From assembly GCF_002946835.1 (NCBI RefSeq), contig NZ_CP026652.1:8477355-8541354 (forward strand): a stretch of DNA of 64,000 nt, read 5' to 3'. This DNA comes from Streptomyces dengpaensis. GTDB taxonomy: Bacteria; Actinomycetota; Actinomycetes; Streptomycetales; Streptomycetaceae. The notes beneath the pieces are model-generated. The model was not told the origin of the DNA and made no database searches. It saw nothing but the letters and a program-made list of their open reading frames with translations. Below are positions 3,899 through 59,911 of the stretch, piece after piece (the stretch's first letter is position 1; the number at the start of each line of letters is the position of its first letter). The position numbers and the translations under genes were made by a program.

Positions 3899-4912
3899 GT
3901 GACGAGCTTGAGTGACGTGGCGCAAGCGGCCGGAGTCCATCCGGGCACCGCGTCCCGAGCGCTGAATCCTCAGACCCGCCACCGTGTGTCGGCGGAGACC
4001 GCGCAGCGTGTCCAGGAGGCGGCCGACCGGCTCGGCTACCAGCCGAACTCGGTTGCGCGGGCGCTGCGCACCCGGCGCTCGCACATGGTCGCGATTCTCA
4101 TCCCGGATCTGACGAACCCTCTGTTCCCGCCCATCGTCAGAGGTGTCGAGGAGGTGCTGGCGCCCGCGGGCTACTCGGCAATCCTGGTCAACACGGACAA
4201 TGACGAAGCCAAGGAAGGGCATCTCTTCGCCGAGCTGCGCGGTCGCCAGTGCGACGGCTTCATCGTGGCGACAGCGCGGCGCGAGCACCCGCTGCTCGAG
4301 CAGGCCGCAGCGGAGGGGGTAGCGATGGTCCTGGTCAACCGCGTGACGGACAGGCGACCTGCGTCGTCGGTGACGGCCGACGAAGCCGGCGGTGTACACG
4401 CCGCGATCGCCCACTTGTCCTCCCTGGGGCACCGGCGGATCGCGCATCTGGCGGGCCCTCAGAATCTGTCGACCGGTCTGATCCGATACCGGGCGTTCGT
4501 CGATGCCTGTGACCGGGCGGGGCTGGGCCCGGACGACCGCCCGGTCGTTGTCTGCGACTCCTTCAGCGAGACCGCCGGCGAGGCGGCGATGCACCGGCTG
4601 CTGCGGGAATCCGTACGGCCCACGGCGGTGTTCGCGTCCAACGATCTGCTGGCCCTGGGTGCTCTGGACGCTACGAGGGCCGCCGGACTGCGCTGCCCAC
4701 AGGACCTGTCCGTGGTCGGCTTCAACGACATGCCCTTCCTGTCCCGGATGAGTCCAGCGCTGACGACCGTGCACGTTCCGCAGCGGACGATCGGCGCCGA
4801 AGCCGCCCGCATGCTGTTGCAGTCCCTCGAGGACCCGGGCCCACCGCGCTCGTTGCTCCTGGGGTGCGAACTCGTCGTACGGGCCTCGACCGGCCCTGCC
4901 CCGAGGAACTGA
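3899..4912 (+). CDS. LacI-family transcriptional regulator
   Basis: DNA-binding repressor of about 337 residues. The N-terminal helix-turn-helix reads LSDVAQAAGVHPGTASRALN, followed by the hinge-helix segment LGYQPNSVARALRTRRS and a periplasmic-binding-like effector domain (VAILIPDLTNPLFPPIVRGV; later FASNDLLALGALDATRAAG and LSVVGFNDMPF). Start choice is between GTG 3899 and TTG 3908: the GGAGG at 3893-3897 suits TTG 3908 better by spacing, while family length allows either. In-frame codons further upstream would cross the operators and are rejected. It is divergent from the importer operon and probably controls both itself and the importer. The effector is unknown. Confidence 0.9.
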   Translation: MTSLSDVAQAAGVHPGTASRALNPQTRHRVSAETAQRVQEAADRLGYQPNSVARALRTRRSHMVAILIPDLTNPLFPPIVRGVEEVLAPAGYSAILVNTDNDEAKEGHLFAELRGRQCDGFIVATARREHPLLEQAAAEGVAMVLVNRVTDRRPASSVTADEAGGVHAAIAHLSSLGHRRIAHLAGPQNLSTGLIRYRAFVDACDRAGLGPDDRPVVVCDSFSETAGEAAMHRLLRESVRPTAVFASNDLLALGALDATRAAGLRCPQDLSVVGFNDMPFLSRMSPALTTVHVPQRTIGAEAARMLLQSLEDPGPPRSLLLGCELVVRASTGPAPRN

Positions 4913-24780: not shown

Positions 24781-25158
24781 ATGCTTGACAGGCCTGTGGT
24801 GGTGGCCGCTCGAGCGGCGGCGCGGGAAATGTCCGCGCAGTACGGGCCGCGTCTTGAAGCGGATATCGAGGAAGCTCTCCGCGGAGGCGGGACTGGGCCG
24901 CCGGACCAGTATTTCGATCCGGTAGCGGCCGCAAGCCTGATCGTGGCCGTAGCGCAGTTCGCTTACCAGACCTACACCCAGCACAAGAAGGACGGCCGGC
25001 GTCCCGAAGCGGAGCCGGTGGTTGGCGCCGTCCGCATCGAGCGCCGCAGGTACACCGAGCTCACTCGTGCCGAAGAGCAGATCATCGAGATTGTGACCGC
25101 CGAGGTCGTCAGGGCGGCCGCCGAGAACGAGCCCGATGGCGACGCGGCTGGTTGTTGA
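24781..25158 (+). CDS. Small partner protein of the CHAT gene
   Basis: A 125-residue protein from ATG 24781 (GTG 24778 is equally placed), with a strong AAAGGGGA ribosome site. An acidic helical N-terminus (MSAQYGPRLEADIEEALRGG) leads to a hydrophobic helix DPVAAASLIVAVAQFAYQTY, then a basic linker and a C-terminal helix TRAEEQIIEIVTAEVVRAAA. The single hydrophobic segment could anchor it to a membrane or pack in a complex. It overlaps the next gene by 23 bp, so the two products are made together. No named family recognised. Confidence 0.7.
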   Translation: MLDRPVVVAARAAAREMSAQYGPRLEADIEEALRGGGTGPPDQYFDPVAAASLIVAVAQFAYQTYTQHKKDGRRPEAEPVVGAVRIERRRYTELTRAEEQIIEIVTAEVVRAAAENEPDGDAAGC

Positions 25159-28100
25159 TCTCGATGAGGGTGGCCTGCGCAGGTGGCCGCTCGACGCGGA
25201 GGCGCTTGAGGATCTCCGGTGGTATTTGGAGGACTACCTCATTGCTCCCTACGGCGTGTATGAGGACCGAGGCGCGCGCATCGCGGCGAGGCTCCCCGGC
25301 TGGGGCGGCGACGTCTTCGAGGCGGTGCTGCCTCTCGGACCCGCACGCGACGCCTACGCGCGGGGACGGGACGGCGGAGAGCTCGAGCTGGTCCTCCGCT
25401 CCTCGTCCCCTGACCTGCTCGGGCTGCCGTGGGAGCTGATGGCCGATCCCTCGTCTGCGGCGCCACTCGCCCTGGAGGCGGGAGGACTGAGCCGATCGCT
25501 GGCGACCGTGTCCGACGACGCCGCGACGATCTCGGTGGCCCGGGGACGGCTACGGGTGCTGATGGTGATCTGCCGGCCCGCCGGGAGCCGCGACGTCGGC
25601 TATCGGATGATCGCGCGGCCGCTTCTCGAGCGTCTGGAGACGGTTCGGGGAACCGTGGAGCTGGTGGTTCTGAGGCCCCCCACCCTCGACGCGCTCCGCG
25701 CTGAGCTGGCGGCCGCGATCGACGCGGGAACGCCCTACCAGGTGGTCCATTTCGATGGGCACGGAGTGTTCCTCGGCGCGGGTACCGGCAGCGGGGGAGA
25801 AGGGGCCCTGGTCTTCGAGGGGACGCGCGGCGGCCCACAGTATGTGCCGGCCCGGACGATCGCCGCGGCGCTGCGGGACGGTCAGGTGCCGGTCGCGGTG
25901 CTGAACGCCTGCCAGTCTGGAGCGGTCGGCAAGGAGCTGGAGGCCGCGATCGCGACCCGGCTGCTCGCTCAGGGCGTGGCCTCCGTCGTCGCCATGGCCT
26001 ACAGCGTGTACTCGGTGGCGGCTGCGGAGTTCATGACTGCGTTCTACGAGCGGTTGTTCGCGGGCGGGACGGTGGCCTCGGCGGTCTCGGCGGGCCGGCG
26101 GCAGATGGCCCGCCGATCCGGGCGTCCGAGCCCGAAGGGCTTTCTGCCCTTGGCGGACTGGCTGGTCCCGGTCCACTATGTCCGACGGGAGGTGAGCTTC
26201 CCGCGAGCGGTGGTGGCCCGCACCCCTGGCGCGCCGGCGCTGGCCGAGGCCCTCACGGCCGTCGCCGAGACCGCGCACGATCCCGGGCTCGGCCCGCTGG
26301 ATCCGGCCGGCGGCGTCTTCGTCGGCCGCGATGCGCTCTTCTACGACTTGGAGGAGGCAGCCCGCCAGGGCAAGGTCATCGTCTTGGCGGGCCCCGGCGG
26401 GACCGGCAAGACGGAGGTCGCGAAGGCGTTCGGCCGGTGGTGGAGTGACACCGGCGGGGTGGAACGGCCGGACTGGGTGTTCTGGCACTCCTTCGAACCC
26501 GGTCTCGCCTCCTTCGGACTGGACAGCGTCGTCACCGAGATCGGCCTGCGCCTCCACGGCACGGAGTTCGCGGCGCTGACCGTCGAGCAGAGGCGCGGGG
26601 TCGTGCTGGAGGCGTTGGCGTCCCGGAAGATGCTCCTGATCTGGGACGACTTCGAGTCCGTCCAGTCTCTCGCCGGTCAGGCTCCGGGCCTGGACGATGC
26701 CGGGCGCGAGCTGCTGCGCTGGTTCGTCCAGGCCGTCCAGGCACATGCGTCCAGCGTGCTTCTCATCACCAGCCGGACGCCGGAGGACTGGCTGGGCGAG
26801 GTCCACAGGATCACCGTCGGGGGGCTGGCCGGCCACGAGGCGATGGAGTACGCCGACGTCCTGCTGGCCGACCATCCTGAGGCGGCCGAGCGGCGGGCGG
26901 GCCGAGAGTTCAGCGAGCTGATGGAGTGGCTGCAGGGGAACCCGCTCGCTCTGCGGCTGGTGCTGCCGGGACTCGCCCGGGACGAGCCCGCGGAGCTTCT
27001 CTCGCAGCTGCGCGGACGTATGCCCCCGAGCACGGAGGACGGCCGCGCGAGCGTGCTGGCGGCCGGCATTGAGTACTCCTATCGGCACCTGAGCGAGTCC
27101 GGTCACCGGTTGCTCCCGGTCATCTCTCTGTTGGGCGGAGTGGCGGACGCCGCGGTGCTGGGCGGCTTCTCCACGGGCGAGGCCGTATCCGGTGAGCTGA
27201 ACAATGTCCCCGCGCGGTTCTCCGGCGCGCGGAAGGAAGACTGGATGATGGTCCTCGACGAGGCCGCTGGAGTCGGGCTGCTGACGGGTCTCGGCAGCGG
27301 CCTTTACCGGATTCACCCCGCGCTGCCCGGCTATCTCACCGCGCGATGGCGGGAGGAGGAGCCCAATCGGTACGACGCCGCCCGGGACGCTGCGGACCGG
27401 GCGTTGGCATACACCTACGCCAGCTGGGGCTTCTTCATGGACGACCAGATCAAGTCGGGTCGCGCCGGCGTCTCCTTCGAGGTCATCGGGCTGAAACGCC
27501 GGACCCTGCTGACATTCCTCGGCAATGCCGTGGACGCTGGCTGGTGGGAGTGCGCGCAGGGGATCGCCCAGCCGTTGTGGGAATACTGGAAGAGCGCTGG
27601 CCTCGACAACGAAGCAGAGCTCTGGGCCGATAGGCTGCGGCGTGCGACCGAGGGGTCGACGTCGGCGGAACCGCCCGTTGCCTCGCCGGCCGGGCGCCTT
27701 TGGCTGTTCGCCCTCGGCGTGTTGGGCGAGCTGGAGCTCCTGCACCAACGTCTGGACCAGGCTGCGGGCCACTACCGTCGGATGGCCGCGGCCGTCGAGC
27801 CGGACACGACCCTCGTTCCAGAGCTTCAGAAGTTCTATCTCGCGAACATCTACCACGGAATGGGTCAGGTCGAGCAGGACAGGCACCGGCTGCGCGAGGC
27901 GCAGAACTGGTTCCGACAGTCCCTGCCCCTCAGCCAGGAGCTCGACCTCAAACCCCAGATGGCCGCCACATTTCTCCATCTCGGCACCATCGCGCAGCTG
28001 AAGAAGCAGTTCCCGGCGGCGGAGGACTGGTACGGGAGGGCTTCGGCGCTCAGCCAGGAGCTCGGCAACGAGCAGTTGGTGCTCGGCACCCACCATCAGT

Positions 28101-28645
28101 CGGCCCAGCTCGCCCAGGAGCGAGGGCAGCTGATTGTGGCCGAACAGCGATTCCGTGACGTGCTGGCCCTTGCCCGCGATCTCGCCGACATCCGCGTCAT
28201 CTCCAACAGCCTCCACCAGCTGGGAATGATCGCCCAGTTCCAGGGGCGCTTCGCGGTCGCCCAAGAGTGGTTCCGCCAGGCCCTGGCCATCAGCGAGGAA
28301 CTCGGGGACCGGCCCGGCATCGCGCGCACCTACAGCCAGCTCGCGGTGCTCGCCGACATGCAGGGCGATCCGCAGGAGGCGCTGGCCTGGACGGTGCGCG
28401 CCGTGACCCAGTTCGACGAGTTCCCTCATCCAACCATGCCGACCCTGCCCCACAACCTCTTCGTAATCGCCGGCCGCGTGGGTATGCCCGCTCTCGAACG
28501 GTGCTGGCAGGACGTCACGGGCAACCCCCTGCCCCCCGAAGTCCGCACTTACGTCCGCCCCGCCGTGGTCGGCGCCAAGGTCCGCAGATTCCTTCGTATC
28601 AAGGCCCCAGCCGACCGCCCCTCACCTCTGCCACCCTCCGATTAG
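25136..28645 (+). CDS. CHAT-domain protease fused to STAND-type NTPase and TPR repeats
   Basis: A 1169-residue predicted immune-type effector. The N-terminal CHAT caspase-like domain (about residues 90-345) keeps the His209 motif VVHFDGHG and the Cys259 motif VLNACQSG. A nucleotide-binding module follows, with Walker A GPGGTGKT at 419-426 and LLIWDDFESVQ as Walker B, plus an ARC/winged-helix-like part. From about residue 860 the protein is helical TPR repeats (LHLGTIAQLKKQFPAAEDWY, then further copies with LGMIAQFQGRF). The order protease-NTPase-sensor repeats matches bacterial NLR-like conflict proteins: the repeats would sense and the CHAT would cleave. Start ATG 25136 overlaps the partner gene. 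Target protein unknown. Confidence 0.88.
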   Translation: MATRLVVDLDEGGLRRWPLDAEALEDLRWYLEDYLIAPYGVYEDRGARIAARLPGWGGDVFEAVLPLGPARDAYARGRDGGELELVLRSSSPDLLGLPWELMADPSSAAPLALEAGGLSRSLATVSDDAATISVARGRLRVLMVICRPAGSRDVGYRMIARPLLERLETVRGTVELVVLRPPTLDALRAELAAAIDAGTPYQVVHFDGHGVFLGAGTGSGGEGALVFEGTRGGPQYVPARTIAAALRDGQVPVAVLNACQSGAVGKELEAAIATRLLAQGVASVVAMAYSVYSVAAAEFMTAFYERLFAGGTVASAVSAGRRQMARRSGRPSPKGFLPLADWLVPVHYVRREVSFPRAVVARTPGAPALAEALTAVAETAHDPGLGPLDPAGGVFVGRDALFYDLEEAARQGKVIVLAGPGGTGKTEVAKAFGRWWSDTGGVERPDWVFWHSFEPGLASFGLDSVVTEIGLRLHGTEFAALTVEQRRGVVLEALASRKMLLIWDDFESVQSLAGQAPGLDDAGRELLRWFVQAVQAHASSVLLITSRTPEDWLGEVHRITVGGLAGHEAMEYADVLLADHPEAAERRAGREFSELMEWLQGNPLALRLVLPGLARDEPAELLSQLRGRMPPSTEDGRASVLAAGIEYSYRHLSESGHRLLPVISLLGGVADAAVLGGFSTGEAVSGELNNVPARFSGARKEDWMMVLDEAAGVGLLTGLGSGLYRIHPALPGYLTARWREEEPNRYDAARDAADRALAYTYASWGFFMDDQIKSGRAGVSFEVIGLKRRTLLTFLGNAVDAGWWECAQGIAQPLWEYWKSAGLDNEAELWADRLRRATEGSTSAEPPVASPAGRLWLFALGVLGELELLHQRLDQAAGHYRRMAAAVEPDTTLVPELQKFYLANIYHGMGQVEQDRHRLREAQNWFRQSLPLSQELDLKPQMAATFLHLGTIAQLKKQFPAAEDWYGRASALSQELGNEQLVLGTHHQSAQLAQERGQLIVAEQRFRDVLALARDLADIRVISNSLHQLGMIAQFQGRFAVAQEWFRQALAISEELGDRPGIARTYSQLAVLADMQGDPQEALAWTVRAVTQFDEFPHPTMPTLPHNLFVIAGRVGMPALERCWQDVTGNPLPPEVRTYVRPAVVGAKVRRFLRIKAPADRPSPLPPSD

Positions 28646-29009: not shown

Positions 29010-29378
29010 ATGGCTCTCAGCTCCTCTCGTTTCCCGGTGCCGAACGCGTTCGAGCTGCTCCGCGAGCAGTACGCCAAGCGGCTGCCCGCGCGCCTTCAGG
29101 ACCTGAGGGGCCCCACCCACGGCTCGGTCGACCTGCCGCTGCACGTTGCATGGTCGGGACGCCGGTCCTACGACGTAGAGCAGCCGCGCTCGCGGATGGG
29201 CCTTTACCGCACCGTCCTGGCCGAGGGGCAGCGCCAGGACCTGGTCGCCTTCCTGAACCGGGATCTGCTGCTCGGGCAGTGGCCGGTGCTGCGCACCCTG
29301 ATCAGCCGGCCGCTGCGGGAGGCCTGGGAAGCCGCCTTCCCCGAGCTGGCCGCCGTCCGGAGCGTGCCGGCCGCGTGA
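29010..29378 (+). CDS. Hypothetical partner of the AbiEii-type toxin
   Basis: A 122-residue protein with no recognised domain. It contains NAFELLREQYAKRLPARLQD and LHVAWSGRRSYDVEQPRSRMGLYRTVLAEG. Its last codons overlap the next gene as GTGA. Position and coupling suggest an antitoxin-like or accessory role, as upstream genes of AbiEii toxins often encode the antidote. However, it lacks the winged-helix signature of AbiEi, so this is inference from context. Confidence 0.55.
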   Translation: MALSSSRFPVPNAFELLREQYAKRLPARLQDLRGPTHGSVDLPLHVAWSGRRSYDVEQPRSRMGLYRTVLAEGQRQDLVAFLNRDLLLGQWPVLRTLISRPLREAWEAAFPELAAVRSVPAA

Positions 29379-30046
29379 ACCTGACCGACCTGCACCGCCG
29401 GCTCCTTGCCGACGTCCTCGCGATCGGCACCCCGTACCCCTTGGTGATCACAGGCGGTTATGCCGTCCAGGCCCACGGCCTGGTCGACCGCCTCAGCCAG
29501 GACCTCGACGTAGCCACCGAGAATCCCGCCTCGATCGCCGAGATCGTCGCCGTGGTCAGCGACGGCCTCGCCACCCGTGGCTGGAGCGTCCGCCAGATCG
29601 AGACGGGCGCCCTCTCCGGTCGTCTCATCGCAACCGACCCGCAATCCGGGGAGGAATGCGAGGTGGACGTCCTCAAAGAGGCATTCTGGGGTCCGCCCGC
29701 GGAGACCGAGTACGGACCGGTGCTGGCCCTCGACGACGTGATCGGCACCAAGGTCCGCGCGCTCGCGGACCGCGGCGCGGTCCGCGACCTCATTGACGTC
29801 CACGCCGCCTCCCAGCACCGCACCACCGCCGACCTCGAAACGCTCGGCCGCCGCCACGCACGCTTCGAGTTCAGCCTCCAGGACCTGCGCGACCGCCTCA
29901 ACGGTGCCGAATGGTGGGACGACAAGGACTTCACCGACTACGGCCTCAATCCCGGGCAACTGGCCGACCTGCGCGGCTGGGCCCTCGCCTGGGCGGCCGA
30001 GCTTGACGCCCGCCTGTATGCCGAGGAGAACCCGGACGAGGTCTGA
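29375..30046 (+). CDS. Nucleotidyltransferase AbiEii/AbiGii toxin family protein
   Basis: A 223-residue protein from GTG 29375. The nucleotidyltransferase motif GGYAVQAHGLVDRLSQDLDVAT carries the G-G and D-x-D pattern (SQDLDV). Downstream are EECEVDVLKEAFWGP (third acidic residue) and ALDDVIGTKVRALADRGAVRDLIDVHA, typical of this family. Related toxins transfer nucleotides to tRNA and stop translation, giving abortive infection. It overlaps its putative partner gene by GTGA. The catalytic set looks intact. Confidence 0.8.
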   Translation: MNLTDLHRRLLADVLAIGTPYPLVITGGYAVQAHGLVDRLSQDLDVATENPASIAEIVAVVSDGLATRGWSVRQIETGALSGRLIATDPQSGEECEVDVLKEAFWGPPAETEYGPVLALDDVIGTKVRALADRGAVRDLIDVHAASQHRTTADLETLGRRHARFEFSLQDLRDRLNGAEWWDDKDFTDYGLNPGQLADLRGWALAWAAELDARLYAEENPDEV

Positions 30047-32948: not shown

Positions 32949-33443
32949 ATGTCCTACCCAGAGCCCCGCTACCTCGGCGAAAGGGGCCAGGCCAGCGCGC
33001 TGTTCCGACCTGCACCCCCGCAGCCCGACACCGGCTCGGGCGGCACCAACATCAGCTACGTGGCCAAGCAGGAGAACACCAACGGCGAGTTCGGCCTGTA
33101 CAAGATCGACATGGCGCCGAAGACCATGGGCGCCACGGAACACTTCCACCGTACGATCTCCGAGTCCTTCTACGTCCTGTCCGGCGAGGTCCGCCTCTAC
33201 AACGGCGAACGCTGGGTCACAGGAGGCGAGGGAGACTTCCTCTACGTACCGCCCGGCGGGCTCCACGCCTTCCAGAACGACAGCGACGACCCGGTGTCGT
33301 TTCTGCTGCTCTTCACACCGGGAGCTTCCAGGGAGGAGTACTTCGAGAAGGTGGAGAAGTACTCACAGCGCAGCCGCGAAGAGTTGAAAGCCTTCCGGAT
33401 CAGGCACGACCAGTACAACACCACCGACATGCTCGAGGACTAG
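32949..33443 (+). CDS. Cupin domain-containing protein
   Basis: A 164-residue single-domain cupin after an AGGAAG site. Cupin motif 1 is EHFHRTISESFYVLSGEVRL (metal ligands H, H and E), and motif 2 is GDFLYVPPGGLHAFQND with the C-terminal histidine. Family members are dioxygenases, isomerases or binding proteins. Its TAG stop (33441-33443) is formed by the TA target plus the first base of the following IS630, so the original C-terminus may have been slightly longer or the stop may be original. Confidence 0.85.
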   Translation: MSYPEPRYLGERGQASALFRPAPPQPDTGSGGTNISYVAKQENTNGEFGLYKIDMAPKTMGATEHFHRTISESFYVLSGEVRLYNGERWVTGGEGDFLYVPPGGLHAFQNDSDDPVSFLLLFTPGASREEYFEKVEKYSQRSREELKAFRIRHDQYNTTDMLED

Positions 33444-34668
33444 TGCCGCATCAGGCAACGTTCGCCCTGCGGTCATGTGCCGCCCGGTTGCTGCGCCGGG
33501 CGGCACTGGACGGCCAGAATGATCACGTGGCTGAACGCGTGCGGGTCCGAGAGATTGATGACGACGAGGGCAGGCGACTGCTGCGGATCATCCGCAGAGG
33601 CACCGGGTCGGTGGTGACCTGGCGGCGAGCCCAGATGGTGCTGTTATCCGCACAGGGCATGCCCGTGGCGAAGATCGCCGAGGTGACGTTCACCAGTAAG
33701 GACCGGGTCCGGGACGTCATCCACAACTTCAACGCCGACGGCTTCGACTCCCTTTACCCGAAATACAAGGGAGGCCGGCCAAAGACCTTCACCCTCCCGG
33801 AACGCCGTGAGATCAAGAAGATCGCCAAGTCCAGGCCGGCCGAGCACGGCCTGCCGTTTTCGACCTGGAGCCTGGCCAAGCTGGCTGACTTCCTGGTCGC
33901 TGAGGGGGTGGTCGACGACATCAGCCACGAGGGCCTGCGGGTCCTGCTCCGCGAGGAGGGCGTCTCGTTTCAACGCATAAAGACCTGGAAGACCTCCCGC
34001 GACCCGGACTACGCGGCCAAGAAGGCCCGCGTCGAGCATCTCTACGCGATCGCCGACGGCGAGGTCATACCCGAGGAAGGCGAGCCCGAAGTCGTCTTGT
34101 GCATGGACGAGTTCGGCCCGCTCAACCTCCAGCCCCACCCCGGGCGGCAGTGGGCCGAACGCGGCGGCCGGCACAAGGACCCCGGCCGCGAGCCCCGGCC
34201 CCGCAGGCGGGCGACCTACACCCGCCCGCACGGGGTCAGGCACCTGCTCGCCGCCTACGACCTCGGCAGGGACAGGCTCTACGGGCACATCAAGCCGAGG
34301 TAGAACCGCACGAGGTTTCTGGAGTTCTGCCGCTACCTGCGCAGTCTCTACCCATCCAAGATCCGTATCGCGATCGTGCTCGACAACTTCTCCCCGCACC
34401 TGACCACGAAGAGGGACACCCGAGTCGGCGACTGGGCCACAGCCAACAACGTCGAGTTCGCCTACACGCCGACCAACAGCTCCTGGCTGAACCGCATCGA
34501 GGCCCAGTTCACCGCCCTGCGCTACTTCGCGCTGGACGGCACCGACCACGCCAGCCACAAGGAGCAGGGAAGCATGATCCGCCGCTACATCATCTGGCGG
34601 AACAAGCACGCCGCCGACAAACGCCTTCGCGAGATCGTGGACAGGGCGAACGTTGCCTGATGCGGCAC
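33443..34668 (+). mobile_element. IS630-family insertion sequence (copy 2)
   Basis: A 1226-bp element flanked by TA (33441-33442 and 34669-34670). The terminal inverted repeats are perfect over 27 bp, beginning GTGCCGCATCAGGCAACG. The left junction is inside the cupin stop codon. Perfect ends suggest a recent insertion, although its transposase has a stop codon. Confidence 0.9.
33527..34660 (+). pseudogene. IS630-family transposase with an in-frame amber codon
   Basis: The frame from GTG 33527 has an N-terminal helix-turn-helix (GMPVAKIAEVTFTSKDRVRDVIHNF) and DDE residues in VVLCMDEFGPLNL, IRIAIVLDNFSPHL and NSSWLNRIEAQFTAL. A TAG at 34301-34303 interrupts GHIKPR/NRTRFLEFCRYLR. One substitution (AAG to TAG) explains it, and the frame is otherwise continuous. 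Inactive unless the stop is read through. Confidence 0.88.
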
Positions 34669-34710
34669 TAGCTCTACCCTGCTGGTTGGGCAGCACATGG
34701 GAGGGGCGGC

Positions 34711-35826
34711 ATGGCGGAGATGACGGCGGGCATGCACAAAATCTGGCCGCACGTTCTGCAAGCGGTCAAGAACCGGCGACGGTTCACATGGATCCTGCTC
34801 GAGCAGAACACGGACGTGCTCTTCTACGACGGCACCACGCTGACGCTGAGCGCAACGAGCCAGGGCGTGTGCGACAACATCGTCGCCTCCGGCTCTTCGG
34901 CCGTACTCGACGAGGCCCTCGCCGAAGTCCTCAGCACCCGGCCCGCCGTCGAACTGGTCGTGGAGGGACAGACGCCGTTCGCCCTGCCCCGCTCCACGCC
35001 GCAAAGCCCCGCGACCGAGGTGCGGGTGTCCGTTGCCGTCACCACCCCTGAAACCTCCGGCGAGGCCACCGAACCGCCGACGCCCGCCCTGCATCTCGTC
35101 CTGGCCCAGACCGCATTCCTCATGCACGAGCAAGGCAACAACCAGGCCGCCGCACTGCTGGCCGACGTCGAGGACGTGGAGCTGGTGCCCGGAAACCGGT
35201 TCGGGGACTGGCAAGACGCCGTTCTCATCGTGCCGCCCTACCTCGTTCCCCGGTTCACCGAGGAGGTCACCGCGGCGATCCAGCCGGTGTTCGAGCACGT
35301 GGCCGGGCGGCACAGCCTGGAGATCGGCGCCGTCACCGCCGCGCCTGCGCTGCCCGACATCGGTGACGACTGGCGGCAAATCCTCCAGGAGAGGCTGGCC
35401 AAGGGAGCAGCATCCAACCAGGCGTCCCGGACCCGTGCCCGGGGGGTCGTCCCCGGGCTCAGCAGGGAAGGCTTCGTCTTCGACTCCCGTGAGGAAGTGC
35501 TCGTCTACGAGGCGTTGAAGAGAGTGCAGGCATCGCTGCCCGAGGAGTCCACCATCTCTGTCTTTCCCCTGCCGTTGGGGCGCGTCGGTGTCGGCAACGC
35601 GTGGACGCCGGATTTCCTCGTCACCGTTGCCGGCCGGGTGGGGATCATCGAAGTCGACGGCCCCCATCATCACAGGCGCTTCGGCGCGGACGCCACACGC
35701 GACCGGCACTGGCGCAACAGCGGGATCGTCCACATCGAACGCATCCTGGTCGAGGAGACCAGTGCCGACACCGACCTTGATGCACTCGTTCGGCAATTCC
35801 TTACCCGGCTGCGTGAGTACCGCTGA
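34711..35826 (+). CDS. DnaX-like domain fused to a DUF559/Vsr-like nuclease
   Basis: A 371-residue protein. The N-terminus (residues 8-75: IWPHVLQAVKNRRRFTWILL, then TLTLSATSQGVCDNI) resembles the domain of DNA polymerase III gamma/tau that follows the AAA+ region. Residues 250-365 look like a very-short-patch/DUF559 nuclease: Glu261/262, Asp301 in WTPDFLV, and Glu314/Asp316 in GIIEVDGPHHH. The lysine of PD-(D/E)XK is replaced by aspartate, as in Vsr/DUF559. A middle region (120-230) is unassigned. The gene lies 13 bp upstream of the SEC-C gene. The fusion suggests a nuclease directed to replication or repair structures. I know no described system with this pairing. Confidence 0.65.
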   Translation: MAEMTAGMHKIWPHVLQAVKNRRRFTWILLEQNTDVLFYDGTTLTLSATSQGVCDNIVASGSSAVLDEALAEVLSTRPAVELVVEGQTPFALPRSTPQSPATEVRVSVAVTTPETSGEATEPPTPALHLVLAQTAFLMHEQGNNQAAALLADVEDVELVPGNRFGDWQDAVLIVPPYLVPRFTEEVTAAIQPVFEHVAGRHSLEIGAVTAAPALPDIGDDWRQILQERLAKGAASNQASRTRARGVVPGLSREGFVFDSREEVLVYEALKRVQASLPEESTISVFPLPLGRVGVGNAWTPDFLVTVAGRVGIIEVDGPHHHRRFGADATRDRHWRNSGIVHIERILVEETSADTDLDALVRQFLTRLREYR

Positions 35827-35839
35827 AGGCGAGGGCTGC

Positions 35840-36973
35840 ATGAGCTTCGAAGAACGAGTCGTTCGGGCCCTGGGCAAGCAACGGGCCGACCGTGTCCGGG
35901 CGGCAGCCCGGCAACTGATGACGCTGGCCGACCATGACGCCCAGAGCACGCAGGCGGTGGTCCATATCAACGTGCCGCTGCACGCGCACAACGCCCACGA
36001 GGCGACAACCGAGCTCGCCAACCTGCTCAACGCCGCCGCACCGGATGAGACTTGGACTTTCGTCACCATCTCCCATCCCGACGGCACATGGACGGGCAAG
36101 GCGAGCCCGTTTATGCAGGACACCTCAAGACTCGGCTCACGGGACTGGATCGCCCACTTCGCCCTGTCCGACCTGCACATGAGACTGGCCGCCTGGCGAC
36201 TGACCCAGCTGTGGCGCGCGGCCGAACTGGCCGAGCAGACCGTCGAGTCCCTCGGGTGTTGGCGGCTGCTCGTCGCGGCCGCATGCTCCCGCTCCCTGCT
36301 GGAGGGAGCGGCCGCACTCACCCACGAAACGACCCTCCTCCACCAGGCGTGGGACACGTTCAAACAAGCCGGCCCGCCCACCACGGCCTCCCTCACCCAG
36401 TTCAGCGCCGACCTCAACAACCGCCTGGCGAAACTCCAGTACGCCTCACGCGTCGGACAGAGCTCCGGTCGGCCTCCCGTGCTCCAGAGCACCAACGTGA
36501 TGACCTACATCAACAAACTGGCCAAGAACACCACTACCGTCGACGTGCTCGACTTGTACGAATGGCTGTGCGACGCAGTCCACCCCAGCTTCGGCTCCGC
36601 CACCACCTACACCGTGCTGCGGGCCTCGGACCGGCCCAAAACCCATGCCATCGAGCAGTACGCACGTCACCCCCTGCAACCGCTCGCCGCCTCAGGCTAC
36701 GCCGTGCAGCCGACCGTCGCCCACGCCGCCGCCGACGCTCTCGTCCTGGCCGCCGAGGTGGTGCACAACAGTCTCTCGCTCGTGAAGTGGACCATGGACG
36801 ACATAGGCCTGACCGCGGAGATCCAAAGCCTCAACCGTCTCCCCTACGCCGGCAGCAGCGACCAGCCACCCCAGCGCAGTGACCCATGCCCGTGCGGCAG
36901 CGGCCGCAAGTACAAGCGATGCGTACACCGATGGGGCCAACCCGGCACCCCGCCGCCGGCCGCCGAGCAGTGA
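35840..36973 (+). CDS. SEC-C motif protein with helical (possible HEPN-like) body
   Basis: A 377-residue protein. The last 30 residues contain the SEC-C zinc motif PCPCGSGRKYKRC (about 349-361). The body is helical: VAAACSRSLLEGAAALTHET near residue 160 and DLYEWLCDAVHPSFGSAT near 240 recall the helices of DUF5677/HEPN-like proteins, but no clear RNase motif is seen. It follows the DnaX-like nuclease gene closely on the same strand, so they probably form a two-gene operon. SEC-C proteins often act as adaptors in conflict or quality-control systems. Confidence 0.7.
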   Translation: MSFEERVVRALGKQRADRVRAAARQLMTLADHDAQSTQAVVHINVPLHAHNAHEATTELANLLNAAAPDETWTFVTISHPDGTWTGKASPFMQDTSRLGSRDWIAHFALSDLHMRLAAWRLTQLWRAAELAEQTVESLGCWRLLVAAACSRSLLEGAAALTHETTLLHQAWDTFKQAGPPTTASLTQFSADLNNRLAKLQYASRVGQSSGRPPVLQSTNVMTYINKLAKNTTTVDVLDLYEWLCDAVHPSFGSATTYTVLRASDRPKTHAIEQYARHPLQPLAASGYAVQPTVAHAAADALVLAAEVVHNSLSLVKWTMDDIGLTAEIQSLNRLPYAGSSDQPPQRSDPCPCGSGRKYKRCVHRWGQPGTPPPAAEQ

Positions 36974-37111: not shown

Positions 37112-37225
37112 TCAGGCGGGAGGCCGTCGCCCGGTGCGCTGCTCCCAGCGGTCGAGCACCGCTTTGAGTTCCGCTTGCGCCCGATTGAGCTTCTCGTCGT
37201 TGTCCTGGAGGGCGCGGAGAGTGGC
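37112..37225 (-). pseudogene. Membrane/coiled-coil gene, C-terminal part (split by IS630)
   Basis: The frame ATLRALQDNDEKLNRAQAEL followed by KAVLDRWEQRTGRRPPA ends at 37112. It continues in frame from the gene body at 38465-39127 once the IS630 and one TA are removed (QHL joined to ATL). Confidence 0.8.
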
Positions 37226-37227
37226 TA

Positions 37228-38464
37228 GTGCTGTGACCGCATAGGTTCGCCGGTTGGGTCAGGCCGCGTCGGCGAGGGCGCGTCCGCCCCAGCGGATGCC
37301 TTTCTCGCTGCGGATGCGGGCGCGTTCTTTGCGTTGGGCGGCCAGGACGTCGGGGTGGCGGGCGTTGGTGTTGCGCCAGCGCAGGTATGCGTGCAGCTCA
37401 CGGGTCTGGACTGTGTGGTTCGGATGGTGGGAGTTGGCGAGGGTGAACTGCCGCAGTGGCCCGAAGTGCGCCTCGATCGGGTTGGCCCAGGAGGCGTTGG
37501 TCGGGGTGAAGCACAGCTCGACCTTGTTCTTCTGCGCCCACCGGCGGATCTTCGTGCCCTTGTGCGCGGAGAGGTTGTCCAGGATCACGTAGATCGGGGC
37601 GCCGTCCGGGCGGGCGGCCCGGACGGACTTGAGTGCGGCCAGGCTGTTGGCCGCTCCCTTGCGACGGCGGTTGACGCCCCACAAGGTGTCGTCGCCGATC
37701 GAGTAGCAGCCGTGGAAGTAGGTGACGCCGTGGGTGCGGTGGTAGGTCGCCGGGACTCGGTCGGGGCGGCCCTGCCCGGCCCAGCAGGCTCCCCCGGTGG
37801 GGCGGATGCCCAGCGGGCCGAACTCGTCAAAAGCGAATACGCGGTCGGGGAAGTTCTCCAGGACGTACTCGATCCGGTCGAGCTTGGCGTCGCGCTCAGG
37901 GTCGGTGGACTCCTTCCAGGTCTTGGTCCGCTGGAAGGTCACGCCGCGGCGGGCGAGCAGGCCGCGTAAGGTCTCGCGGCCGATTCGGATCACCCGGCCG
38001 TGGACTTTGCGCAGGTAGGCGACGAGTTTGCGCAGCGACCAGCGGGTGAAGGGCTGGCCGAGCTTGGCGGGGCGGGTGGTGGCCGTCTGGATGACGAAGT
38101 TCTCGTCGTCAGGGCTGAGCAGGCGGGGACGGCCTCCCGCCCATTGAGGGTCCAGGCAGGCCAGGCCGATCTCGTTGAACCGGTGGATCACATCGCGCAC
38201 GGTGTCGTCGTCGGCCTGCACCAGCTGGGCGATCACCGGCACACGGTTCCCGCCGGCCGAGGCCAGCAGCATCATCGCCCGCCGATAGCGCACCGAACTC
38301 GTACTGCCACGGCGCACGATCTGCTGCAGACGCCGCCCCTCCTGGTCGGTCAGTCTGCGCACACGGACAGGCTCAGCCACCACGCCTCCAGCGATCAGAT
38401 CGGATGTCACCGCACATCCAACCGCCACGACCACCAACCCGGCGAACCTATGCGGTCACAGCAC
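37228..38464 (-). mobile_element. IS630-family insertion sequence (copy 3, intact)
   Basis: A 1237-bp element flanked by TA (37226-37227 and 38465-38466). The inverted repeats are perfect for 26 bp, beginning GTGCTGTGACCGCATAGG. The transposase is intact. Inserted in a minus-strand membrane/coiled-coil gene. Confidence 0.92.
37259..38380 (-). CDS. IS630-family transposase (intact)
   Basis: A 373-residue transposase from GTG 38380 (the frame is open further to 38437). The helix-turn-helix region includes RVPVIAQLVQADDDTVRDVIHRF. The DDE core is complete: VFAFDEFGPLGIRP, IYVILDNLSAHKG and TNASWANPIEAHFGPLRQF. Basic C-terminus. Of the four IS630 copies in the window this is the only one with an undisturbed single frame, so it is the likeliest to be mobile. 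Confidence 0.93.
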   Translation of the reverse strand: MAEPVRVRRLTDQEGRRLQQIVRRGSTSSVRYRRAMMLLASAGGNRVPVIAQLVQADDDTVRDVIHRFNEIGLACLDPQWAGGRPRLLSPDDENFVIQTATTRPAKLGQPFTRWSLRKLVAYLRKVHGRVIRIGRETLRGLLARRGVTFQRTKTWKESTDPERDAKLDRIEYVLENFPDRVFAFDEFGPLGIRPTGGACWAGQGRPDRVPATYHRTHGVTYFHGCYSIGDDTLWGVNRRRKGAANSLAALKSVRAARPDGAPIYVILDNLSAHKGTKIRRWAQKNKVELCFTPTNASWANPIEAHFGPLRQFTLANSHHPNHTVQTRELHAYLRWRNTNARHPDVLAAQRKERARIRSEKGIRWGGRALADAA

Positions 38465-39127
38465 TAGGTGCTGACGGGCGGCTTGCCGGGGACCGGTGTC
38501 CGCCCGGGCGGCCGCCAGCTTCGCTTCGATGGTGCGGATCGACGCGGCACGGTCGGCGCAGGTTTCCTTTTCGCTGATGACCGCGTTGGTGATGGCGGCC
38601 TCAAGATCGAGTACCTGCTGTTCCGTGTACTCGGCGAACGCGAATGACTCGTAGTCCTTGTAGCCCTTGGGCCAGATCAGATACAGGTAGTAGTGGCTTT
38701 CGTCTCTCTTCATCTCCACCGACGACAGATCCTTCAGCGGCATATCCCGCTCCTTGAAGACCAGCACGTGCTTATACAGCGACACCGCGCCGAGTGACCC
38801 GCCGTGCTCGCCCCGGCCGACGTCTTCATGCTCTTGCTGCCATGCCTGCTCAAGCTCCCTGATCTGCCGCGCATACGCCTGATCGACCTCGGCGACACGG
38901 TCTCGAGCAGCCCTGAGTTCCTGCCGAGCCGTGCTACGCAGAGAACGGACAGCGTCGCGGTGCTGGTCCAGTTCCTGCCTCTCGGCCTCATGCGCGGGCC
39001 CGAACGCATCCTCCCGGCTGCCCGGATAGCGGTACAGCCGCCAGCATCTCCTCGTACCCAATGCCACGCCCGCAACGAGCACGATCCCCAAGATCAGCCA
39101 GACCGCATCCACAGGCCCTCCACCCAT
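38465..39127 (-). pseudogene. Membrane/coiled-coil protein, N-terminal part (split by IS630)
   Basis: The frame from ATG 39127 (or the following GTG with GGAGGG before it) starts with one transmembrane helix (VDAVWLILGIVLVAGVALG). A coiled coil of charged heptads (REDAFGPAHEAERQELDQHR through QIRELEQAWQQEHED) follows, then a beta-rich domain, VSLYKHVLVFKERDMPLKDL to YYLYLIWPKGYKDYESFAF, that looks PH- or SHOCT-like. It is interrupted after QHL by the IS630. With the part at 37112-37225 it gives 258 residues. Function unknown. Confidence 0.75.
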
Positions 39128-39354: not shown

Positions 39355-40262
39355 ATGGCATTCCAGACCACCACTCTCCCTGTGCTGATTGCCTCCCCCG
39401 GTGACACCACGGGGGAGCGCAAGGCCGTCGAAGAGGCAATCCTGAGCTGGAACAGCGACCGGACCCGCGCAGCGAAGGTGCACTTGCTGCCCTTGCGTTG
39501 GGAGCTGGACGCCACCTCGGAGCTCGGACGCGGTACAGCTCAGGAGGTGATCAACCGGCAGTTCGCCGATGAGGCGGACATCGTGATCGGAATCTTCTAC
39601 AGCCGGCTCGGCCAGCCAACGGCGGACGCCCCGTCCGGAACCGCTGAGGAGATTCAACGCGCCATCGCACGCGGTGCCGCCGCCTCGGTCTACTTCTCTT
39701 CCGCACCGCTGGACCAAGCTCGACTCGACATCGACCAGTTCCAGCGCCTGCAAAGTTTCCGCAAGACGCTGCAGGAACAGGGGCTCGTGGGCACCTTCGA
39801 GTCCCGGAAGACCTCAAGTCGCAGGTCCGCTCGTTCCTTGAGCGTGCGACGCACCAGTTGACCTCCGGTACGGAGCATGACGCGGACAGCGCTGATGCCT
39901 CACCTGCGCCGCGGGCGGTTCTGCGCTGCGAGTATCTCTATGACCGCGAGGCGCGGTCAGACAAGAACGGACGCATCAGCTACCGATCTGCCCGGCAGCG
40001 GCTCCAGGTGAGCAACCTCGGCAGCGGTCCTGCAGACCACCTGCACATCGAGGTCGAACCAGTCGGCGGTGGTGAATCCCCCATTGTCCTGGACGCCCGC
40101 AATGGCGGTGCCGGACTGGTGGTCGAACGGCTCCTCGATCACACCCACATCGACTTCCCGCTCGCCCTCACGATGGGTACCGCCCCTCAGGCCAAGTTGA
40201 CTCTGAGCTGGGAAGAGGCCGGCGAGAAGTTCACGGAGGTGCAGTCCATCCGCTGGATGTGA
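39355..40262 (+). pseudogene. DUF4062-like (TIR-related) protein, one frameshift
   Basis: The N-terminal part (LPVLIASPGDTTGERKAVEE, INRQFADEADIVIGIFYSRL, GTAEEIQRAIARG) is a DUF4062-type domain, a relative of nucleoside deoxyribosyltransferase/TIR folds used as sensors or NAD-processing modules. Near 39808 one base is missing (GTFES then EDLKSQVRSFLERATHQL one frame over). The C-terminal part 39858-40262 holds an Ig-like beta domain (RLQVSNLGSGPADHLHIEV to LTLSWEEAGEKF). Total about 302 codons. A mutation or sequence error; if intact it would be a stand-alone conflict protein. Confidence 0.7.
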
Positions 40263-56570: not shown

Positions 56571-57671
56571 TCACGGGGTGCTGCTGTTCCCGCCCTTACG
56601 GGGGCGGTGGTGTTGTTCGGCGAGGTGGTCCAGGCGGATGGCGTCGAGGGTGGTTTTGGTGATGCGTTCGGTGCCGTCGCTGATGGCGGTGATGGCGGCC
56701 TGGCGGATGAGGCGGGCGAGGCTGCCGATGCGTCCGGCGGTGCGCTCGTGGAGGTAGGGGGCCAGGTGGGGGAGGGTGCCGGGTTTGTGGTGGCGTAGGT
56801 CGAGTGCGTTTTCCATGGCGGTGATGAGGTCGCGGAAGGGCTCTGCCTCGCCGAGGCGGGCGGGGAAGGCGGCGCAGTCGATGAGGGAGGCGCGGCCGGC
56901 GAGTTGGGCGCCGCGGACGCCGGTGAACAGGGGTGTGGTGGTGACGTCGATGCCGGCGTAGATGAAGGTGGCGCCGATGCGTTCGGTGAGGTCTTTGATC
57001 CAGTCGGCGGTCTGGGCGCCGGTGGTGGTGCGGGGGTTGAGGCGGTGGATTTCGTCGATCATGACCAGTTCGACGTGGGCGGCTGTGTAGGTGTGGCAGA
57101 CGGCGCTGGTGATCTGGGCCTGGGACATGCGGGTGGTGGCGGGGATGCCGAGGTAGCGGGCGAATTCGAGGGCGAGGGTTTTGGCGGTGGCGGCGGGCGG
57201 GACCAGGACGTAGGCGACGGGGACGTGTCCGGCTGTGGCTGTGGGGCCGTGGCGTCGGGTGTGGGCGAGGTGGCAGACGCGGCCGACCTGCAGCAGGGCG
57301 GTGGTTTTCCCGGCGCCGGCGGGGCCGGTGACGATGAGGGAGGGCCGTGCGGTGACGGTCTGGTGGCGGCCGAGGATCATCAGGGTGCGCACGTTCTTGG
57401 CGAGGGTGTCGATGGCCGGTGTGCGTACGGTGACGAACCGCGAGTGGTAGGCGAGGCGTTCGGCGAGGCTGCGGGGCGGCGCTCCGGGCGGGGGAGGGGC
57501 CGCTGCGGGTGTGGTGGCGAAGGCATGGAAGCCGTCCCAGGTGGTCACCGACTGGTCCTGCGCGCGAGGGGCCTCGGCGTCCGTAGGTGCCGCGACACCA
57601 GGCAGCCGGTCGGTCGTTGGCGGGTGTCGGCCGGACGGCGCATCTTTTGTGCCTGGTGGGGTGTTCACCAT
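56571..57671 (-). CDS. TniB/TnsC-like AAA ATPase of a Tn7-like transposon
   Basis: A 366-residue ATPase from ATG 57671, overlapping the tnsB stop by ATGGTGA. Walker A GPAGAGKT is at residues 116-123, Walker B ELVMIDEIHRLNPRTTTGAQ, and sensor region ATFIYAGIDVTTTPLF. The C-terminus ERTAGRIGSLARLIRQAAIT is typical of TniB/TnsC adaptors. It regulates the transposase and marks target DNA. A proline/alanine-rich N-terminal tail of about 65 residues is lineage-specific. No TniQ gene follows. Confidence 0.88.
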   Translation of the reverse strand: MVNTPPGTKDAPSGRHPPTTDRLPGVAAPTDAEAPRAQDQSVTTWDGFHAFATTPAAAPPPPGAPPRSLAERLAYHSRFVTVRTPAIDTLAKNVRTLMILGRHQTVTARPSLIVTGPAGAGKTTALLQVGRVCHLAHTRRHGPTATAGHVPVAYVLVPPAATAKTLALEFARYLGIPATTRMSQAQITSAVCHTYTAAHVELVMIDEIHRLNPRTTTGAQTADWIKDLTERIGATFIYAGIDVTTTPLFTGVRGAQLAGRASLIDCAAFPARLGEAEPFRDLITAMENALDLRHHKPGTLPHLAPYLHERTAGRIGSLARLIRQAAITAISDGTERITKTTLDAIRLDHLAEQHHRPRKGGNSSTP

Positions 57672-59911
57672 TGCTCGGCCTCCGCTTCGGCGTCCCACAG
57701 CCCGTATCCGTCTACCCCCGCCGGCCTCATGTCCGTACCGTCCTGTTTGTGTGTGCCGGTGCCGGTGCCGGTGCCGGTGCCGGTCGCCGGGTCGGCGCCG
57801 ATGGGATCGTCCAGGCTCTCGCTCCAGTCCAGGCCCGGCGTCGGGCCGCCGTGCGCACTGTGCGTTCCGCTGTCTGCCTGGGTGACCGGCGCATGGCCGG
57901 CGGTCTCTACGGCCGGGTCGGCGGTCTGTGTATCGCGTGCTCCTTGCTGACCTGGCAGGTCGGGCAGTGTGGACAGCTGTGCTGCGCTGCTGGTGGGGCG
58001 GGTTTTCCTGCGACGGCTGCTGTGGTCCGTTTCTGCGGGGCCGCGGGTGCGGCGCAGGAGCTGGTCGAGTGCGTCGGCGAGGTCGGCTTCGTGCTGGTCG
58101 CGGCCTGCGCGTTGTTCGACTTCGCTCTGGACGTGGCGCCAGGTCTGCTCGTCGAAGGGCTGGTGGACGTGGTCGCGGTGGATCCAGGGGATTGCGTGGA
58201 GCTGTCCGTCGGTGAGGCGGATCCAGATCTGGCGGGCGTCGTGCGGATTGTGGTGGATTTCCCACTTGCCGTCCTTGCCGGCGTGGGGCGAGCGCCGGCC
58301 GCGGTAGGGGTTGAGGACGGGGTGGTTGTAGGTGCGGTGGTTCAGACGGATACCGCGGTCGGTGATGGGCTGCCAGCGCACGGGCAGCAGTTCGAGGTAG
58401 TCGGCCCCCGTCAGCGGCACGGGGACGTATCCGCTGAGGGTGATCAGCGCGGCCCACATCTGGTTCGGTGTGAGGGCGGTCTTGGGCAGGACGGGGTGGC
58501 GCAGTCCGTCGTGGGGCCGGTTCTGCCACCCGCAGGTGATCCATTCGTCGAGGAGGTCCTGCAACTGCGGGACCGTCCACCGTGCCTCGGCGGCCACGTC
58601 AGGGCCGCGTCTGAGGGGGCTGGAGCCGGTGTGGCCGGCGACGTGCTGGCAGAACAGGTCGTTGATCGCGCCGAAGGTCCGTTCCACCACGGCCTTGGCC
58701 TGCGGGCGTCGGGGTGGGGCGGGCTGCACGCTCACTCCGAGCATCTCGCAGGCGGCGACGAAGCAGGCGGAGAGGTAGATCTTGCCGCGGTCGACGACGA
58801 TCGTCTCGGGCACGATGACCGGGCGGGCGGCCGCGCCCTCCAGCCGTTCGTCCAGCGACAGCATCCGCTCGTAGGGCACCTCGGCCCGCGACAGATGCAG
58901 CGACTGAGGCCAGGTGGGCCGTGCTGGGTGGGGGACGGCCATCTCGGCCAGGAGCAGGGCGGCGTCGACGGCTTTGGTGCTGTGCGGGCGCAGCACGGCG
59001 GCGAGGATGGAGCGGGTGGCGACGTCGACGGCGATGGTCAGCTCCGGCCGCCCGAGGGTGCCGTCCTCGAGGACGGCCATGATGTCCAGGCGGGTGGTGT
59101 CGATCTGCACCTGTTCCCCGGGCCGTAGCACCAGCGGCGCTGAGGGCATGCGGGCGGGTGCGGTGGCCGTGTGCGCCGCCCGGCCGGGCAGCTCGGCCGG
59201 GTCGGCGAGGGCGTTGACCAGCCGGTAGAACGACGACGGCGGCGGCAGCGCCACCGCTTGCGGCCCGTGCAGGTCGTCGAGGATCTGCCCGGTCAGCACC
59301 CGCAGTCCCTTCACGGTGCCTCTCGACCGGCCGCGCTGACGCCGCAAGGCCTCCAGTACCGCGGCCACGACCCGTTCGTCGGCGCGGCCGGCCGGGCGGG
59401 CGGAGCGGACGGTGCGTTTGTCGACCAGCCCCCACAGGCCCTGCCGGCGGTAGGCGAGCCGCATCCGCTCCACCGTCGTGCGGGTCACCCGGGCAAAGCC
59501 CAGCAACGTCAGTTCCCTGGCCTTGGCAGCGTCCCGCTCGGCCAGCGTCCACCGCTTCGGGTCGTACTGCGGCCTCATCGTCTGGCCGGCGCGGCTTCCT
59601 GGCGGATGCGGCCACCCGGTCTCCACCTCCCGGATGTGGGGCAGCCACGCCAAAGCCCGCTGCTGGGCGGCCGCCGGCACGGTCTCGAACAACCCCCACT
59701 GCGGGACCGCTTGCGGCGCCCGCGCGCCCACTACCTCGAAGCCGGGATCGGCGAACAAATGACCCATCAGCAGGGTCTTCTCGGCACCGTTCTCCTGCAC
59801 CAGACAGAGCTGCTGGCCCTGCAGAGCGGCCACCTGCCAGGTCTCTCCCCGGTGGACAACATGTGCTCCGACCGCCACCACCGGCCGCCACCGCTCTTGC
59901 TGCCCTGTCAC
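57665..59911 (-). CDS. TnsB-like Mu-type DDE transposase
   Basis: A 748-residue transposase from GTG 59911, overlapping the tnsA stop (GTGA). The DDE residues appear as Asp271 (GEQVQIDTTRLDIMAV), Asp374 (IVVDRGKIYLSACF) and Glu410 (KAVVERTFGAIND). N-terminal helix-turn-helix domains include TLLGFARVTRTTVERMRLAY, and the C-terminal Mu beta-barrel region includes HHNPHDARQIWIRL. A long disordered tail contains a (TG)n run encoded by a hexanucleotide repeat. Catalytic residues are intact. Confidence 0.93.
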   Translation of the reverse strand: MTGQQERWRPVVAVGAHVVHRGETWQVAALQGQQLCLVQENGAEKTLLMGHLFADPGFEVVGARAPQAVPQWGLFETVPAAAQQRALAWLPHIREVETGWPHPPGSRAGQTMRPQYDPKRWTLAERDAAKARELTLLGFARVTRTTVERMRLAYRRQGLWGLVDKRTVRSARPAGRADERVVAAVLEALRRQRGRSRGTVKGLRVLTGQILDDLHGPQAVALPPPSSFYRLVNALADPAELPGRAAHTATAPARMPSAPLVLRPGEQVQIDTTRLDIMAVLEDGTLGRPELTIAVDVATRSILAAVLRPHSTKAVDAALLLAEMAVPHPARPTWPQSLHLSRAEVPYERMLSLDERLEGAAARPVIVPETIVVDRGKIYLSACFVAACEMLGVSVQPAPPRRPQAKAVVERTFGAINDLFCQHVAGHTGSSPLRRGPDVAAEARWTVPQLQDLLDEWITCGWQNRPHDGLRHPVLPKTALTPNQMWAALITLSGYVPVPLTGADYLELLPVRWQPITDRGIRLNHRTYNHPVLNPYRGRRSPHAGKDGKWEIHHNPHDARQIWIRLTDGQLHAIPWIHRDHVHQPFDEQTWRHVQSEVEQRAGRDQHEADLADALDQLLRRTRGPAETDHSSRRRKTRPTSSAAQLSTLPDLPGQQGARDTQTADPAVETAGHAPVTQADSGTHSAHGGPTPGLDWSESLDDPIGADPATGTGTGTGTGTHKQDGTDMRPAGVDGYGLWDAEAEAEQW
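57756..57785. repeat. Hexanucleotide repeat in tnsB
   Basis: Five tandem GCCGGT units (plus strand) encode a Thr-Gly run in the disordered C-terminal tail of the TnsB-like protein. In-frame copy-number change would alter the tail only. A slippage-prone tract. Confidence 0.7.

Follow-up and report, generated by a model that had tools for sequence, protein, structure and literature searches.

Gene A of Streptomyces dengpaensis encodes a chimera in which the globular C-terminal (tau) domain of DnaX is joined to an unnamed middle domain and a predicted PD-(D/E)XK nuclease. We tentatively propose, with a confidence that falls somewhat short of probable, that A alone is the unit, a solitary mobile accessory nuclease for which the captured DnaX domain serves as an address tag. 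The DNA analysed here, referred to as the window, is the final 64 kb (64,000 nucleotides) of an 8.54-Mb contig in a genome of 8.7 Mb and three contigs; its features are listed in Table 1. The initial annotation had described two open reading frames of 371 (A) and 377 (B) residues separated by 13 bp, and both frames and the gap were confirmed, with real homologs found for each protein; the nearest named relatives of A and of B were from Streptomyces. It had also regarded the architecture as undescribed. This holds for the fusion of a DnaX domain to a nuclease, of which no description was found in a literature search that most subscription papers lay outside. The placement of the pair amid conflict genes and mobile elements was borne out for the region.

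Both genes are enclosed by two transposase elements, which we take to be of the IS630 type. The terminal repeats are 30 bp and perfect in the upstream element and 35 bp and 94% identical in the downstream one. The upstream element stops immediately 5′ of TACCCT, and the leader around this hexamer resembled the leaders of other A loci when five upstream regions were compared by eye, suggesting a possible −10 element. A sigma-70 scan gave no promoter for A and did not pick up TACCCT.

Table 1. Positions in the window of genes A and B, their domains and the flanking elements.
Feature	Position	Strand	Remarks
Element upstream of A and abutting it, presumably IS630-type	33440..34671	+	HTH_32 and DDE_3 (Pfam); transposase pieces in two frames
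TACCCT, possible −10 element of A	34675..34680	+	Five upstream loci compared by eye
Gene A, 371-aa chimera joining a DnaX tau C-terminal domain, a middle domain and a predicted PD-(D/E)XK nuclease	34711..35826	+	
A residues 2-88, probably captured globular DnaX (tau) C-terminal domain, DnaA-domain-I-like fold	34714..34974	+	
A residues 89-125, disordered linker	34975..35085	+	pLDDT under 50 at residues 97-123
A residues 126-245, unnamed middle domain	35086..35445	+	Found with DnaX, without DnaX and in the Zn form
A residues 250-369, predicted Vsr/I-Bth0305I/DUF559-type PD-(D/E)XK nuclease	35458..35817	+	
Putative catalytic-motif stretch TPDF (D301) ... IEVDGPHH (E314, D316, H320)	35605..35670	+	Conservation, 58 rows
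A/B gap, 13 bp, holding the homology junction	35827..35839	+	A block ends at 35829, B block starts at 35831
Gene B, 377-aa SEC-C protein, possibly with HEPN-like helical core	35840..36973	+	
B residues 346-365, SEC-C zinc motif region	36875..36934	+	PF02810, 4e-7 at residues 346-361
Element downstream of B, presumably IS630-type	37225..38467	−	HTH_32 and DDE_3 (Pfam)

Residues 5-127 of A matched three NCBIfam gamma/tau models (PRK07764 type) at 3e-9 to 2e-8, and residues 11-85 were 51% identical (38/75) to residues 572-646 of the host's own DnaX, a protein of 772 residues by our gene call in which the matching stretch comes after a long Pro/Ala linker. When this part of A was compared with DnaX profile to profile, the match had a probability of 99.95%; the Pfam family DnaX_C (PF20964) scored 15.8 bits on A, under its cut-off of 26.2. 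The N-terminus had been annotated as the post-AAA domain of DnaX, and the match to DnaX stands while the assignment to the region does not, for the domain is the globular C-terminal one and not collar domain III. Only this DnaX domain matched in A, which resembles DnaX in having it and differs in lacking the AAA+ clamp-loader module, collar domain III and the C-terminal tail and in being fused to a nuclease.

We found that the C-terminal part of A has a Vsr/I-Bth0305I-like fold, with a homing endonuclease domain as the top match. The nuclease residues TPD...EVDG reported there in the initial annotation proved to be conserved: D301, D316 and H320 were each kept in 98%, and E314 in 100%, of 58 rows, one of which is the window protein (34 of the 91 hits lie outside this alignment, namely 20 Zn forms, three DnaX proteins and 11 sequences that are truncated, frameshifted or partial). 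Their catalytic role is presumed from the Vsr and DUF559 families. Fold and conserved residues together suggest that A is likely a DNA nuclease. A shares the fold and the acidic/His motif with nucleases of the Vsr, I-Bth0305I and DUF559 types and differs from them in carrying a middle domain of its own and a captured DnaX domain, and in scoring below the DUF559 cut-off of Pfam (12.3 bits for the window protein against 20.6; 28.9 bits for the distant relative P0091). Profile comparison showed no relationship between the middle domain and the tau domain. In one fused subclade (P0029-P0034 and L006) EVDGPHH is replaced by EVD(E/Q/D)PHH or changed further, and the nuclease of these proteins may be altered or dead.

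To describe the family, we sorted the 91 database hits for A, of which P0088-P0090 were DnaX proteins and P0091 was a distant DUF559 protein. The other 87 were of the following kinds: DnaX domain, middle domain and nuclease; middle domain and nuclease; DnaX domain, middle domain and a Cys-rich C-terminus; and truncated or frameshifted forms. When the middle domain was used to build a tree (78 rows, with 14 of the 91 hits outside the alignment), 54 of the 55 rows labelled as having tau fell in one clade of 58 (90/96), the odd one being P0084, which was labelled by misalignment and carries no tau motif. Rows counted as tau-less in this tree include P0017, which starts at residue 29, P0024, a frameshifted gene, and P0038, which is unverified in DNA. 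The Cys-rich (Zn) forms, in which a domain with weak resemblance to FYVE_2 or a B-box is followed by a helical-looking tail, nest inside the DnaX-bearing clade. By the hand list, the DnaX and middle domains are joined to another C-terminal domain in 20 of the 78 rows; this count of Zn forms is 10 in a regex tally. Sequences in which the Cys-rich domain stands in place of the nuclease are P0042, P0045, P0054, P0058, P0060-P0070, P0076-P0080, L064 and L077.

Genes of the A type, fused or not, were present in at least 26 of 394 genomes of the family, our own included; the genome searches scored few candidates per genome, and the genome counts for A and for B are lower bounds. Outside the window there were 62 distinct A-family places, told apart by the length of their contigs, 13 of them with the DnaX part and 49 with no tau match, and proteins composed of the middle domain and nuclease without tau were also present in other actinobacteria. 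No match for A was found among phage sequences or in IMG/VR, and no family of PADLOC-DB 2.0.0 matched it. In S. odonnellii (L003) a partial second copy of the middle domain and nuclease (4365-4862) precedes the full A gene by about 2.1 kb, and at another locus an extra nuclease piece is found on the opposite strand (L013, 7828-8175).

The origin of the captured domain was examined in a tree of 77 columns (midpoint root, many inner forks open, P0084 left out), in which the 54 A rows formed one clade (99/99) against 38 DnaX rows. This clade branched among Streptomyces DnaX rows, a placement that was weakly supported (77/87). Because the DnaX parts of A form a single clade, a single capture from a dnaX of streptomycete type is the most likely origin. 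We then compared evolutionary rates. In seven fused genes, one of which (L062) is a broken copy, with medians taken by hand, dN/dS of the tau part had a median of 0.39 (range 0.24-0.87; 21 pairs), compared with 0.26 for the middle domain (21 pairs) and 0.21 for the nuclease (15 pairs without the Cys-rich form). The corresponding domain of host dnaX had a median of 0.18 (range 0.03-0.86; 171 pairs from 19 sequences). The tau part of A is under purifying selection, about twofold looser than that on host DnaX, with overlapping ranges.

In some lineages the tau part has been severed. A frameshift cuts it off in S. echinoruber and leaves the remainder open, the same is true of three plasmids that share one identical protein record, and at the locus of P0036 (L007) no tau match was found within 7 kb; the tau part is therefore dispensable there. 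These frameshifts and the loose selection would suit a rather improbable account in which the tau part is a passenger, or a solubility or dimer module, with no role in replication, and A is an ordinary restriction or homing-like nuclease of the Vsr/DUF559 type that works through its middle domain. The abundance of tau-less relatives, at 49 of the 62 places, and the homing endonuclease domain as top nuclease match point the same way. Opposed to this account are the confinement of the tau part to one clade, where it occurs in 54 of 58 rows, a dN/dS under 1 in all 21 pairs, and the retention in A and DnaX alike of eight positions (W12, P13, L16, R24, W27, N33, G41 and L44), each above 90%, in a comparison that reached position 85.

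The captured domain was next considered together with the part of DnaX that A lacks. DnaX proteins of the same genus continue for 111-169 residues beyond the globular domain and end in a conserved tail (20/20, with 3 of 23 loci unreadable), and this tail was absent from A itself and from its family members (0/87). According to the available part of PMC4703070, it is through its C-terminal part that E. coli tau attaches to Pol III alpha, with the extreme end bound to the tail of the polymerase and the globular domain in contact with the fingers. By analogy, A would have taken the globular domain without its likely polymerase hook, and with the tail missing, binding to Pol III alpha in the manner of E. 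coli is unlikely. The same part of PMC4703070 states that the tau C-terminal domains of E. coli and Taq have no homology, so no binding partner can be transferred to Streptomyces. In the accessible portions of the literature, no direct account of a binding partner of the actinobacterial C-terminal DnaX domain was found.

The helicase gp40 of phage SPP1 binds host DnaX and DnaG and thereby recruits the host replisome (available parts of PMC6316719 and PMC5615212), which makes a decoy reading possible. We consider it rather unlikely that the DnaX domain of A is an integrated decoy, a bait whose binding by a phage protein brings the nuclease to phage DNA or switches it on there; it is similarly doubtful that phages or rival elements which grab host DnaX to copy their DNA would pull the nuclease onto that DNA. 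Apart from the gp40 precedent, such a decoy would be consistent with the presence in A of only the globular domain without the tail, with a tau part about twice as loose as that of host DnaX, as an arms race could give, and with the restriction genes that adjoin certain A genes. Against it, SPP1 infects Bacillus, dN/dS remains below 1, and loose selection alone fits equally well. We know of no Streptomyces phage protein that binds the DnaX C-terminal globular domain.

We wanted to see where A genes lie in their replicons. On contigs over 5 Mb, the fused forms lay no farther than 77 kb from a contig end (4/4 contigs), and tau-less forms were within 110 kb of an end at 1/10 places among the matches listed (Fisher p 0.005, with the distance limit set post hoc); this comparison leaves out at least one tau-less place (G375), counts a second G390 place as tau-less without DNA confirmation and includes L005, whose contig end may not be a telomere. 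All eight plasmid records with A, fused or not, were linear (8/8, with no background rate for linear plasmids). In Streptomyces chromosomes, variable genes cluster in the arms (available part of PMC8627663), and the nearness of A to the ends may reflect just these variable arms. The position of fused forms near contig ends and of plasmid forms on linear plasmids, together with the Vsr-like fold, would also agree with replication-coupled repair, in which the DnaX domain would direct a mismatch or lesion nuclease to the fork and the enzyme would serve the ends of linear replicons. This is distinctly improbable, as A is accessory and patchy (at least 26/394 genomes), some rows are truncated or have the nuclease replaced, and 9 of the 10 tau-less places counted on large contigs are far from an end.

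The neighbours of A at other loci include genes of the restriction type. In L005 a GmrSD_N/GmrSD_C/RAMA gene lies 68 bp upstream of A on the same strand, and a 77% identical relative of it lies 67 bp upstream of A in L062 (right end of G197), where the A copy is broken in the nuclease. The gene lists of the fused loci L003, L004, L006 and L064 and of the tau-less loci showed no GmrSD gene directly upstream. GmrSD/BrxU type IV restriction enzymes are thus neighbours of A in two genomes and not its relatives, and Pfam gave no GmrSD match within A. A DUF262 gene was found about 3 kb downstream of A on two plasmids, and further neighbours were AlbA_2, DUF559-helicase with TerD, and TIR-NB-ARC genes.

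The relationship between A and B was then analysed. The designation of B as a SEC-C protein was upheld, SEC-C being found in 56 of 59 aligned rows at E up to 0.1; the alignment leaves out 5 of the 63 database hits for B, among them the window's own copy (P0092). C350, C352, C361 and H363 were conserved at 90% or more, and R151, E155, Y240, H248 and S250 were invariant in the 59 rows. The nearest known counterparts of B are proteins named SEC-C/YecA and, for its possibly HEPN-like helical core, the HEPN/AbiV fold. PADLOC-DB 2.0.0 gave six partial matches for B, all of them C-terminal.

The initial annotation had proposed A and B to be a conserved two-gene system, a proposal that was to fall if the pairing was absent from other genomes. 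We found neither B nor anything matching a distant B query at the 62 A places outside the window (0/62; at least 1.4 kb of downstream flank for 61/62), and no piece of A at five other B places (0/5; flanks of G030, G386, G115 and plasmids L070 and L071, a count that does not cover the close B relatives P0093-P0097). The B of G030 is 89% identical to that of the window, and the B of L071 is a mere remnant. In addition, the DNA homology that A shares with other loci stops at 35829, and the block shared by B and G030 starts at 35831, so that the two homology blocks meet between the genes. B was also rarer than A, in 4/392 and 1/394 genomes (own included; lower bounds). On these results, and by the terms it set itself, the proposal is not supported, and B is best read, from the comparison of loci, as a separate gene that was probably joined beside A in this lineage, a chance neighbour.

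A system in which the nuclease A is controlled by the SEC-C protein B is accordingly left highly improbable by the absence of the pairing at 0/62 and 0/5 places, by the junction of the homology blocks and by the rarity of B. What speaks for it is the local arrangement: the genes are on one strand with a 13-bp gap, no terminator was found on that strand, and A and B are therefore likely co-transcribed here. Relatives of A and of B also share a divergent neighbour in two genomes. This gene X (177 aa; L004 5867-6400 and L059 6618-7151) stands upstream of A in S. echinoruber and upstream of B in G030, in both cases divergently, which hints that A and B have used one common site. Gene X had no Pfam match, and its RNRVVH stretch looks HEPN-like.

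Returning to A as a solitary nuclease with an address tag, we infer its nuclease activity, the partner of the tag, the direction of domain gain and a role in defence or element conflict as follows. The ancestral protein would have had two parts, the middle domain and the nuclease, and an ancestor within or near Streptomyces/Kitasatospora would have acquired from host DnaX its globular C-terminal domain. This domain could then dock the nuclease on a partner of DnaX in the replication machinery, and DNA under copying by host Pol III, whether it belonged to a phage, a plasmid or a competing linear element, would be cut. Recruitment to the fork, as put forward in the initial annotation, is a plausible candidate mechanism. 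In favour of the address tag are the identity to DnaX, the single clade, a dN/dS under 1, the conserved nuclease residues, the reuse of the DnaX and middle domains with another C-terminal domain, the end position, the linear plasmids, the conflict neighbours and the patchiness. Against it are the missing tail, the E. coli/Taq non-homology, the frameshifts that lose tau, the broken L062 copy, the variable-arm position and the lack of a phage or IMG/VR match and of a PADLOC model; furthermore, a tau part evolving about twofold more loosely is odd for a domain that docks on a conserved host protein. If the domain binds replication proteins, the nuclease would choose its targets by the copying machine and not by sequence or base modification. 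The address tag would then exemplify how a domain of host replication is put to new use in genome conflict, and it would offer a handle on the binding partner of the actinobacterial C-terminal DnaX domain.

Several other genes in the window and around A loci were recorded. TniB and TniA (Mu-type transposase) genes occupy window positions 56571-59911. In G000, G197 (both ends), G1056, G549 and W02, fused A genes have a relative of TniA some 1-22 kb away; none was found near fused A in G097, G1054, G1055 and W01. A weak TniA relative (26% over 167 aa) lies 4.4 kb from A in L003 (12531-14123), and in our own genome a broken TniA copy is also found near the opposite chromosome end. Possibly A is carried as cargo by a Tn7/Tn5053-like element. 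At 39355-39861 of the window a 168-aa protein has a weak DUF4062 match below the Pfam cut-off, and at 29037-30046 an AbiEii-type nucleotidyltransferase gene is immediately preceded by a small gene, with which it may form a type IV toxin-antitoxin pair. A protein of 1169 aa (25136-28645) combines a CHAT domain, an NTPase-like part and TPR repeats, a make-up familiar from conflict systems.
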